Source: Desulfomicrobium baculatum DSM 4028
GTDB lineage: Bacteria; Desulfobacterota; Desulfovibrionia; Desulfovibrionales; Desulfomicrobiaceae
Assembly: GCF_000023225.1 (NCBI RefSeq)
Contig: NC_013173.1
Location: 994,501 to 1,058,500 of the forward strand
Direction of reading: 5' to 3'
DNA: 64,000 nt
Both the position numbers and the translations under genes were made by a program. This document shows, in pieces, positions 14,038-53,785 of the stretch. The notes under the pieces were generated by a model that was given only the letters and a program-made list of their open reading frames with translations, was not told where the DNA came from and made no database searches. Numbering within the stretch: the stretch's first letter is position 1; every line of letters starts with the position of its first letter.

Positions 14038-14973
14038 TCAGCGCAGCTCCACCGCCCATTTCTCAAGCTCGGGCACGGTGTCCACGATCTTCTCCTTCAG
14101 CAGAAAATCCGCGAACCGGGTGTAGCGTTTGTGGTCCAGAGCTCCAGGCCGCAAGGCGAAGCGGGGCAGGGTGTCCTTCCAGGCGCGGCGGTTCAGTTCG
14201 TCGTCGAGGCTGGCGCGGTCCCCGGAGACGAAGAGCTTCCAGCTCTCGTCCGGATGGTTGATCAGGTACTGCACCCCTTCCTCAAGCGCGTCGACAAAGG
14301 CGCGCAGTTTCGGGTCGGAAAGTCTGTTCGAGGCGGCGACGAGGATCAGTTCGTCGTAGGCGGGCACGCCGTATTCCTCGACAAAAAAGGCCTTGCCGGG
14401 GCGGCCCTCGATGTCCATCTGGTTCAGTTCGAAGTTGCGGAACGCACCGATGACGGCGTCGGTCTGGCCCGTGAACAGGGACGGGGACAGGGAGAAGTTG
14501 ACATTGACCAGTTTCACGTCACCGAGGGCCAGGCCTTCTTTCTCAAGCATCACTTTCAGAAGCGCGGTCTCGAAGCCGCCCACGGAATAGCCGATGGTCT
14601 TGCCCTTCAGGTCCGCGATGGACTTGATGGGGCCGTCTTTGAGCACGACCAGCGAATTGAGCGGCGTGGCCACGAGGGTGGCGATACGGGTCAGCGGCAG
14701 GCCTTCGCTGACCTGCATCTGGTGCTGATGCTGGTAGGACACGGCGATGTCGGCCTGTCCGGCGGCCACGAGCTTGGGCGGGTCGTTGGGGTTGGAGGGG
14801 GCGATGAGCGTAACGTCCAGGCCGTGGTTTTTAAAGAAGCCTTTTTCCAGGGCCACAAAGAGAGGAGCATGGTCGGGGTTGACGAACCAGTCCAGGAGCA
14901 CGGTCAGCTTTTGGGCGTGGGCCGAGGTGGCGCAGAGGAGGATGGTTGCAAGGAAGAGGGTGATTTTTTTCAT
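14038..14973 (-). CDS. thiY: ABC transporter substrate-binding protein for thiamin pyrimidine precursor (ThiY-like)
   Basis: A 311-residue periplasmic protein of the NMT1/THI5-like fold. A signal peptide (MKKITLFLATILLCATSAHA) precedes KLTVLLDWFVNPDHAPLFVALEKGFF, the hallmark opening of ThiY, which binds formylaminopyrimidine/HMP precursors. GYSVGGFETALLKVML lies in the middle. It is the last gene of the thi cluster, separated from thiX by 279 bases holding a structured repeat. Exact ligand specificity is inferred from the family and from the thiamin context. Confidence 0.85.
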   Translation of the reverse strand: MKKITLFLATILLCATSAHAQKLTVLLDWFVNPDHAPLFVALEKGFFKNHGLDVTLIAPSNPNDPPKLVAAGQADIAVSYQHQHQMQVSEGLPLTRIATLVATPLNSLVVLKDGPIKSIADLKGKTIGYSVGGFETALLKVMLEKEGLALGDVKLVNVNFSLSPSLFTGQTDAVIGAFRNFELNQMDIEGRPGKAFFVEEYGVPAYDELILVAASNRLSDPKLRAFVDALEEGVQYLINHPDESWKLFVSGDRASLDDELNRRAWKDTLPRFALRPGALDHKRYTRFADFLLKEKIVDTVPELEKWAVELR

Positions 14974-15042
14974 TGGGTTATCCTTGGGTTGGGCGCGGGG
15001 CGCCGTGGTTTGAAGAATGGGAAATGGTTTGCAGCAGTGCGG

Positions 15043-15222
15043 CCGCGTTCCGGTTCGATTCGGGCCGGGGCCGCCAAAACTCCTTCACCGGCCTCGTACT
15101 GTTTTCCCGTCGCTGCTGCCGAACAAAAGGGCGTGCTTCGGGCGGAAGGCGACGGGAAAACAAACGATGCCTGGCTCAGTCAGACAGTTGCCGCCCCCGG
15201 CCCGAATCGAACCGGAACGCGG
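15043..15222 (+). repeat. Structured dispersed repeat, copy A (within thi cluster)
   Basis: A 180-bp element. The outer arms are a perfect 28-bp inverted repeat (15043-15070 with 15195-15222, core CGGTTCGATTCGGGCCGGGG). The inner hairpin arms are 15100-15113 and 15149-15162 (TGTTTTCCCGTCGC and its complement). Between outer and inner 5' arms lies the first conserved box (15078-15098, includes CTCCTTCACCGGCCTCGTA). After the inner hairpin lies the second box (15162-15187, includes GATGCCTGGCTCAGTCAGAC). The boxes match copies B and C, while both stems have entirely different sequences. It sits between thiX and thiY, in the minus-strand transcript. Confidence 0.9.
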
Positions 15223-15252
15223 GGACCGGGGCTGAAATAGTGAAGATCGGAT

Positions 15253-16002
15253 TCATTGGATTCCCTGTTTCGGCTGCCAGAAGACCAGCTTGTCCAGCAG
15301 GCGGTCGATCAAAAAATAGAGGGCCAGGGACGTGACCGCCAGGACGGTCAGGGCCGCGAACATGACGTCGATCTGCATGCGGGCGTTGGCGTGGAGCATG
15401 TAGAACCCAAGCCCCGCGCTCGACCCGACCCACTCCCCGACCACGGCTCCGATGGGCGCCACGGCCGTGGCCACGCGCAGGCCCGAGGCGAAGGCGGGCA
15501 GGGCCGAGGGGATGATGATGGTGCGCAGCACGGCCAGGGGCTTTGCTCCCATGATGCGGGCCAGTTCCAGCAGGTCGGGTTCGGTGCGCTGCATGCCTGA
15601 GTAGAAGGACGAAGCCACCGGAAAAAAGATGATCAGCACCGCCATGCCCACCTTGGACGCCATGCCGTAGCCCAGCCACAGCACCAGGATCGGAGCCAGG
15701 GCAAAGACCGGGATGGCCTGGCTGACCACCAGCACGGGCAGCATCCAGCGCTTGAGGAGCGGCGAGAGGATCATGATTAAGGCCGCGCCCGTGCCAAGGA
15801 TCGTGCCCAGGGCCAGGCCCAGCAGGATTTCCGTGAGGGTCGTGCCCAGATGGGACAGGAGCAGTGGAAATTTGTCGAGCAGGGCATGGCCGACGGGCAG
15901 CGGTCCGGGCAGGATGTAGGGCGGAGCCCCGGTCAAAGTGACCAGGAGTTGCCACAGGAGGAGCAAGCCTGCCGTCAGGATCAGGGGGCGCAGGATGTTC
16001 AT
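15253..16002 (-). CDS. thiX: ABC transporter permease of thiamin precursor uptake (ThiX-like)
   Basis: A 249-residue inner-membrane permease with about six hydrophobic segments. The EAA-type loop reads ELARIMGAKPLAVLRTIIIPSALPAFASGLR (about 145-175), as in taurine/nitrate-type and ThiX permeases. It overlaps the ATPase gene by four bases, so both are translated together. The binding-protein gene lies beyond the structured repeat. Substrate is assigned from context (thiM-thiE-thiD, TPP riboswitch). Confidence 0.86.
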   Translation of the reverse strand: MNILRPLILTAGLLLLWQLLVTLTGAPPYILPGPLPVGHALLDKFPLLLSHLGTTLTEILLGLALGTILGTGAALIMILSPLLKRWMLPVLVVSQAIPVFALAPILVLWLGYGMASKVGMAVLIIFFPVASSFYSGMQRTEPDLLELARIMGAKPLAVLRTIIIPSALPAFASGLRVATAVAPIGAVVGEWVGSSAGLGFYMLHANARMQIDVMFAALTVLAVTSLALYFLIDRLLDKLVFWQPKQGIQ

Positions 16003-19012: not shown

Positions 19013-19083
19013 GGGATACCTCACACGAAGAGTTGTGGAGGCAGCGGAGGCGAGGAATGGTTTGCCGGCGATTGCGGCCAGTC

Positions 19084-19157
19084 TTGCAATTCCCTTCGCT
19101 GGCATGATCCAGATCAGGTTCAACGGGTATCATCTCAGGCTCCTCGCCACCCCTGCA
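19084..19157 (-). promoter_or_regulatory. TPP (THI-box) riboswitch controlling thiM-thiE-thiD and transport genes
   Basis: On the minus strand the leader reads GGGGTG, then CTGAGATGATACCC, then TTGAACCTGATCTGGATCAT and GCCAGCGAAGGGA. These are the invariant parts of the TPP aptamer: the pyrimidine-sensing CTGAGA region and the pyrophosphate-sensing arm. It ends about 70 bases before the thiM start. No obvious terminator stem with a T run lies between the aptamer and thiM, so control may be at translation initiation. Confidence 0.95.
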
Positions 19158-19364
19158 AAAACTCGTCATTGGCTAGGATAAGCGGGGGGAGGTGTCAAGA
19201 CAGGCGTGCGCCGACGCTGAATTACGCGGGCAGTTTTTTATGTATGACAACAGAATGGAGTTTTATGCGGCCTTGTGCCATGTTCTTACTGATGCGGCTG
19301 AACTTGTGGAACAGAAGTAATGACGCGTCCTTTACAAAAATTCAGCCGGCGCCGGAGTTGAGAT

Positions 19365-45683: not shown

Positions 45684-45858
45684 GGTCCGTTGTCGTCATG
45701 GTCTTGAGGTGCGTCGGCTGTCTGACTGAGCCAGGCATCGTTTGTTGAATCGTTGCCTGATGTGCTGTTCGGGTTTTCCGCACTGCACGCAACGATTCAA
45801 CTCTACGAGGCCGGAGAAGGAGTTCCGGCGTAACTCAAGACCATGGCGACAACGGACC
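45684..45858 (-). repeat. Structured dispersed repeat, copy B (core inverted)
   Basis: A 175-bp element. Outer arms are 45684-45708 and 45834-45858 (25 bp, 24 Watson-Crick pairs plus one G-T). Inner hairpin arms are 45744-45756 and 45789-45801 (GTTGAATCGTTGC), with a 32-base loop. The conserved boxes are on the minus strand: 45804-45824 for the first and 45718-45743 for the second. Outer arms resemble those of copy C with paired substitutions. It lies between the rhodanese terminator and the RluA-type gene. Confidence 0.9.
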
Positions 45859-53610: not shown

Positions 53611-53785
53611 GGTCCGCTGTCGGCAGGGTCTTGAGACCCGTCGGAACTCCTTCTCCGGCCTCGTAGAGTTGAATCGTTGCGTGCCGGGCGGAAAATCCGG
53701 GTGATCCGTCAGGCAACGATTCAACAAACGATGCCTGGCTCAGTCAGACAGCCGACAGTTCTCAAGACCCTGCCGACAGCGGACC
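53611..53785 (+). repeat. Structured dispersed repeat, copy C
   Basis: A 175-bp element with perfect 26-bp outer arms (53611-53636 with 53760-53785, beginning GGTCCGCTGTCGG). Inner hairpin arms are 53668-53680 and 53713-53725 (GTTGAATCGTTGC), with a 32-base loop. The first box is 53645-53665 (includes ACTCCTTCTCCGGCCTCGTA) and the second is 53726-53751. It follows the cobH terminator and precedes the minus-strand monooxygenase gene. No gene lies inside. Confidence 0.92.

Follow-up and report, generated by a model that had tools for sequence, protein, structure and literature searches.

Three copies of a hairpin element lie in a 64,000-nucleotide stretch of the Desulfomicrobium baculatum DSM 4028 chromosome (the window), and they belong to a real and apparently undescribed family. 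It is probably a MITE-like, non-autonomous family of mobile elements in the Desulfovibrionales, whose hairpin core is under selection for structure. Counted for this reading are the covariation of the stems, a wobble bias on one strand, terminal inverted repeats (TIRs) and target duplications (TSDs) around one core in two carriers, dispersal with 0 to 54 copies within the genus, replication polarity and placement at gene ends; counted against it are the absence of TIRs and TSDs in D. baculatum, of an identified transposase and of a clean empty site. We propose that transposases encoded elsewhere would move the element in trans via its terminal repeats, while the folded strand of the core, as RNA or transient single-stranded DNA, may be read by some factor. 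The core might be retained since whatever reads the fold aids propagation of the element or lowers its cost, and the replication polarity could reflect insertion or survival at forks.

Anatomy and distribution of the element

Copies A and C share one order of boxes and arms on the strand on which the element was first read (the first-read strand), and copy B lies in reverse complement orientation relative to both. The original prediction placed all three copies exactly, and its account of their sequences holds: the 21-nt box has a single base difference in A, the 26-nt box is the same in A, B and C, and the stems of A differ from those of B and C. The features are as follows.

15043..15222, + (first-read strand; the complement is the constrained folded strand): copy A, whole element (sequence; orthologue in G010)
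15078..15098, +: copy A box 1, AACTCCTTCACCGGCCTCGTA (sequence; conserved across the genome-wide set)
15162..15187, +: copy A box 2, AAACGATGCCTGGCTCAGTCAGACAG (sequence; conserved across the genome-wide set)
45684..45858, -: copy B, whole element (sequence; inverted versus orthologues in G010, G007, G014 and G002)
53611..53785, + (first-read strand; the complement is the constrained folded strand): copy C, whole element (sequence, fold, orthologues)
53611..53644, +: copy C outer stem, 5' arm (fold; covariation)
53645..53665, +: copy C box 1, 21 nt (conserved in all copies)
53668..53680, +: copy C inner stem, 5' arm, GTTGAATCGTTGC (fold; covariation)
53713..53725, +: copy C inner stem, 3' arm, GCAACGATTCAAC (fold; covariation)
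53726..53751, +: copy C box 2, 26 nt (conserved in all copies)
53752..53785, +: copy C outer stem, 3' arm (fold; covariation)

The fold of copy C has an energy of -113 kcal/mol (z = -11), and patterns allowing up to 3 mismatches match the single-contig genome of 3,942,657 bp 38 times for box 2 and 44 times for box 1, versus 0 and 3 times for the reversed patterns; the fold of copy C and the box-2 counts are not chance. Reading of the pattern matches leaves about 42 copies in the genome, so that the "three-copy" description gives way to a large family, each copy consisting of the two boxes, with the inner hairpin between them, and a ~33-bp outer stem. The boxes are near-invariant and lie within an internal loop, and the stems vary. 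They had been taken as unpaired, yet folding and covariation models pair TCGT with ACGA (UCGU/ACGA) and GGC with GCC inside them, making them partly paired. By eye the boxes are unlike the R boxes of integron attC sites; a K-turn or tandem-GA internal loop is suggestive by eye only and is not claimed. A coding origin of the boxes was considered since some changes look synonymous, and was dropped since in some copies the inner stem interrupts the reading frames with stops. An autonomous version with a gene between the boxes was sought and none was found, the lone box 1 matches being copies with a changed box 2.

Copy number within the genus ranges from 0 to 54 per genome, with 20-54 in most congeners larger than 3.6 Mb and none in five congeners of 2.3-3.2 Mb (G004, G005, G006, G011 and G012). 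With a covariance model, copies whose stems differ widely and whose GC content is 35 to 71% turn up in five Desulfovibrionales families, and nothing turns up outside the order in samples of 347 genomes of the class and 345 of the phylum. The exact core pattern, run against 84,980 species that were each represented by one genome, matches only metagenome-assembled genomes labelled Desulfomicrobium, Desulfonatronum, Desulfovibrionales or Proteobacteria, the last being one assembly that appears to be G001. The element was not found in phages, plasmids or IMG/VR. The original prediction did not recognize the family, and the copies tested against Rfam 15 (including 6S and HEARO) give no match above the gathering score, and a permissive Rfam search with copy C gives no credible one. 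No description of the family was found in open-licence papers, nor does one appear in the passages of the D. baculatum genome paper that deal with repeats and transposition (PMC3035215). A divergent version occurs in another family of the order as four near-identical tandem units of ~226 bp (L110:5433-6282, G026).

Neighboring genes have their ends toward the element 55 times and their starts toward it 23 times, as judged with a simple gene caller. Copy A lies between a gene for an NMT1/THI5-like binding protein and a permease gene, copy B between rhodanese and pseudouridine-synthase genes, and copy C between CbiC and ABM-domain genes. We also noted a TPP riboswitch at 19071-19164 (-) of the window, which lies upstream, on the same strand, of the transporter genes flanking copy A (14038-16002, -), so that copy A may belong to a thiamine-regulated transcript. 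Several D. baculatum copies (L002, L012, L015, L021, L025 and L032) are adjoined by a second dispersed repeat, CTCCCCTCCTGCCAAGGAGGGGTGCCCGAAGGGCGGGGTGGTT.

Covariation and the constrained strand

Covariation of the stems is overwhelming, as the original prediction had anticipated from three copies. RNAalifold on 36 D. baculatum copies returns 49 pairs, 39 of them with two-sided changes. Across 47 copies from several genomes, 94.8% of stem cells are paired versus 69.8% in shuffled alignments, and sliding the structure by 1-3 columns leaves at most 48% paired. Two-sided cells number 508 in this set, a value reached in 0 of 500 shuffles (shuffled mean 142); the covariation score is 0.69 versus 0.20 shuffled, and 33 of 41 pairs have changed on both sides.

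The mispairs indicate which strand is constrained. On the first-read strand, A-C/C-A mispairs fill 58 cells and G-T/T-G mispairs 13; since cells are not independent, we also counted distinct column types, which gives 35 versus 10 (p = 3e-4). An A-C mispair corresponds to G-U (or G-T) on the opposite strand, which means that wobble is tolerated on the complement of the first-read strand. In Desulfomicrobium the bias is strong (59:6); eight copies from other genera and families show the same sign, without significance (10:4). The usual C-to-T excess on the leading strand would have the opposite effect. Consensus folding energies agree, at -107 kcal/mol for the complement and -77 kcal/mol for the first-read strand. 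These data indicate that the folding constraint acts on the complement of the first-read strand. Selection on a folded single strand, as originally put forward, is thus strongly supported by the covariation and the wobble bias, and it is the choice of strand that has to be reversed. Because G-T mismatches are mild in DNA as well, the wobble test does not distinguish RNA from single-stranded DNA. Together, the results suggest that a folded single strand, beyond DNA sequence alone, is what selection preserves.

Palindromes are prone to template-switching correction, and the arms might have been matched by such self-correction with no selection on pairing, for which the scarcity of single-sided intermediates in some pairs could be cited. 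We regard this as very improbable: the outer stems of the orthologous copies C of D. baculatum and G001 differ by single changes as well as by compensated pairs, the single-sided changes leave one of the strands with wobble pairs, and the strand asymmetry seen in the wobble bias is not expected from self-correction.

Tolerance of wobble on one strand together with covariation is a trait of functional non-coding RNA, and the element has it. In an unlikely rival reading, the element is a structured non-coding RNA present in many copies and with a function for the host; it would have spread by duplication, sometimes hitch-hiking in transposons, and could act in trans or serve as a processing or stability element in read-through transcripts. 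The conserved internal-loop sequence flanked by covarying stems fits such an RNA, as does copy A, which lies between two co-directional transporter genes with its folded strand in the transcript sense. On the other hand, no promoter of its own, as a functional non-coding RNA might be expected to have, is conserved beyond the stems across 94 copies, neither strand is preferred relative to co-directional neighbors (8 versus 9 gene pairs), the sense of the folded strand is head-on to replication in most copies, and several congeners lack the element.

Carriers and locus dynamics

In Desulfonatronum the anatomy shows movement via terminal repeats: there the hairpin is central in two kinds of miniature element. 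The first is ~225 bp long, with TIR GTAACTACTCAGC and 8-bp duplications (e.g., GAATAGAT and GTTCCATA), and the second ~250 bp, with TIR CAGGGCNNNTTTGTTCTCA and 10-bp duplications (e.g., GAGAGGGGCT and GTGCCTGGAA). Flanks of the second kind match at 9 or 10 of 10 positions in 10 of 27 candidates, versus 0 of 2,000 random pairings. Orientation of the hairpin relative to the asymmetric arms is uniform in this kind (15 of 15 scorable), and in the first kind the hairpin of one element (L053) is flipped. Elements of the second kind also exist without the hairpin, two of them with perfect 10-bp duplications; both of these, L286:1501-1705 and L289:1320-1520 in Desulfonatronum G029, carry CAGGGC terminal repeats. 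The first carrier family may be IS66-like, as its GTAA ends suggest, and the second, with CAGGG ends and a 10-bp TSD, is presumably of another type; both assignments serve as leads.

D. baculatum copies have palindrome arms only, with no recognizable TIR or TSD, and copies at different loci align within the palindrome and not past its ends. A search for TSDs around the Desulfomicrobium copies returned scattered short repeats only, tandem duplications aside. No transposase for the element was identified; a scan for a partner TIR and for open frames covered the six single-TIR loci in G029. Since such ends are not recognizable in D. baculatum, movement by terminal repeats is something we infer there. 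MITEs are small (about 100-300 bp), non-coding and dispersed in many copies, as are the units of 180-250 bp found here, with about 42 copies in D. baculatum; Desulfonatronum adds two TIR types and TSDs of 8 and 10 bp. Membership holds there and would extend to Desulfomicrobium. As the core of two Desulfonatronum miniature transposons, the hairpin is best read as a non-autonomous mobile element, in agreement with one of the roles first suggested. The proposed route through single-stranded DNA is disfavored: where insertions are clean, in Desulfonatronum, TIRs with target duplications point to ordinary double-strand transposition.

Copies at individual loci have been lost, tandemly duplicated and inverted. 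Copy C is present in G000, G010, G001 and G007, being tandemly duplicated in the last, and is absent or a remnant in six further congeners examined. At locus B, close relatives have two or three copies in tandem, all in a single orientation, D. baculatum has one copy, inverted relative to its orthologues in G010, G007, G014 and G002, and G001 has none; the inversion lends indirect support to the suggestion of a recombination site. Precise empty sites in sister genomes had been proposed as a check, and loci without the element were found; none was a clean empty site, the flanks being either diverged or still marked by remnants. Half-elements that comprise the 3' inner arm, box 2, the 3' outer arm and the tail form tandem arrays with periods of ~90-160 bp in G002 (L068, L069 and L070), G007 (L071) and G014 (L073). 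Short palindromes of the type GTCATTCCCGCGNAGGCGGGAATCC occur in or beside element clusters (L076, L077, L068 and L168, the G010 copy A) and seem to be inserted into their tails.

Replication polarity and comparison with known systems

GC skew in D. baculatum switches near 3.5 and 1.65 Mb, and relative to these points the first-read strand runs with the fork in 37 of 42 copies (p = 4e-7), or 32 of 37 once tandem copies are merged; among the five exceptions is copy B, which is inverted. The close relative G010 gives 44 of 52, and 40 of 44 outside the terminus region, a result not independent of G000, with which it shares many loci. Desulfonatronum G029, which is independent, has skew switches at 0.7-1.2 Mb and 2.2-2.7 Mb; all five full-length matches agree with the polarity (that at 2.41 Mb depending on where the origin lies within the 2.2-2.7 Mb interval) and two weak matches disagree. 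A polar chromosomal mark for replication or segregation, its orientation kept by selection, would explain such an orientation along both replichores in three genomes, but some congeners have no copies and the inverted copy B is tolerated, which makes this reading highly improbable.

Movement of a MITE needs only its ends, so the MITE-like reading leaves selection on the core without explanation. It is possible, though we hold it to be rather unlikely, that the hairpin is an independent, structure-recognized module that sits in unrelated transposon ends and fixes the orientation of insertion or retention at forks, its folded RNA or nascent-lagging-strand DNA being bound by some factor. If true, such a module would be mobile and selected for shape, with sequence fixed only in the internal loop.

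Replication polarity is known for IS200/IS605, for Tn7 with TnsE and for other elements that contact the replication clamp (PMC5371812), and a single-stranded DNA element of the IS200/IS605 or REP/RAYT type, mobilized by a Y1 HUH transposase, would share it (PMC5371812). Y1 genes are also loosely correlated with the element, being commoner in genomes that bear it. Nevertheless, we find this origin improbable. Target duplications as in Desulfonatronum are not made by such enzymes, several genomes, G015 and G041 among them, bear the element without Y1 matches, and the element is absent from the fetched flanks of Y1 genes examined in eight genomes, including the two genes of D. baculatum. A plain IS200/IS605 scheme (PMC6006769) is also at odds with the strand: the lagging-strand template exposes the first-read strand, the complement of the one constrained in folding. 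The two D. baculatum genes (L152:2566-3546 and L153:2772-3551, at 1.116 and 2.924 Mb) are RAYT-like and carry their own repeats (GGGGGTCAGGTCTCGCGTTGA and TGGGTCTCTGAGACCAAGAA), not the hairpin element; beside the second is an open frame of (I/V)AAS repeats (L153:4674-5660), probably a simple-repeat tract. With Y1 genes not flanked by the element and this pair having its own repeats, a RAYT partnership was rejected; the profile also lacks the conserved GTAG beside the stem that marks REP/RAYT. A retroelement copied by a reverse transcriptase was likewise rejected, no RVT_1 match being detected in D. baculatum at E 1e-5.

Miniature transposons are normally viewed as a pair of ends with filler between them. 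In this family that filler is under clear one-strand structural selection throughout an order, with arms that drift freely and a polarity that matches replication, which makes the role of a MITE core a testable question. The family is also a natural covariation data set for a shape-recognized nucleic acid, and it adds an unannotated repeat that accompanies tandem duplication, inversion and loss in sulfate reducers.

IS66-type insertion sequences have GTAA ends and 8-bp duplications; compared by ends and TSD alone, one Desulfonatronum carrier resembles them (GTAACTACTCAGC and an 8-bp TSD) and the other, with a CAGGGC TIR and a 10-bp TSD, does not. Like IS200/IS605 (PMC5371812, PMC6006769), the element has a hairpin and an orientation bias with replication; unlike them, it has target duplications in Desulfonatronum, its constrained strand is not the lagging-strand template, and it carries no gene. 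With REP/REPIN and RAYT (PMC6006769) it shares dispersed intergenic palindromes, tandem clusters and patchy copy number; REP hairpins, however, are 21-65 nt long with a foot of GT[AG]G, and they lie on either side of their Y1 gene (PMC6006769), whereas the element is ~180 nt with no GT[AG]G foot seen and no Y1 linkage. Bacterial MITEs with long stem-loops include ERIC/IRU/RU-1, YPAL/RU-2, Correia/NEMIS and RUP (PMC2229807, PMC10969869). Like these, the element is ~100-250 bp, non-coding, intergenic and present in many copies with a long hairpin, and in Desulfonatronum it has terminal repeats and target duplications. Such MITEs are described by their conserved ends, whereas here the ends and stems vary and the internal-loop core is conserved, with one core common to two sets of ends and an orientation that follows replication. 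It is this selected, shape-conserved core under two sets of ends, together with its replication polarity, that sets the family apart from described bacterial MITEs.
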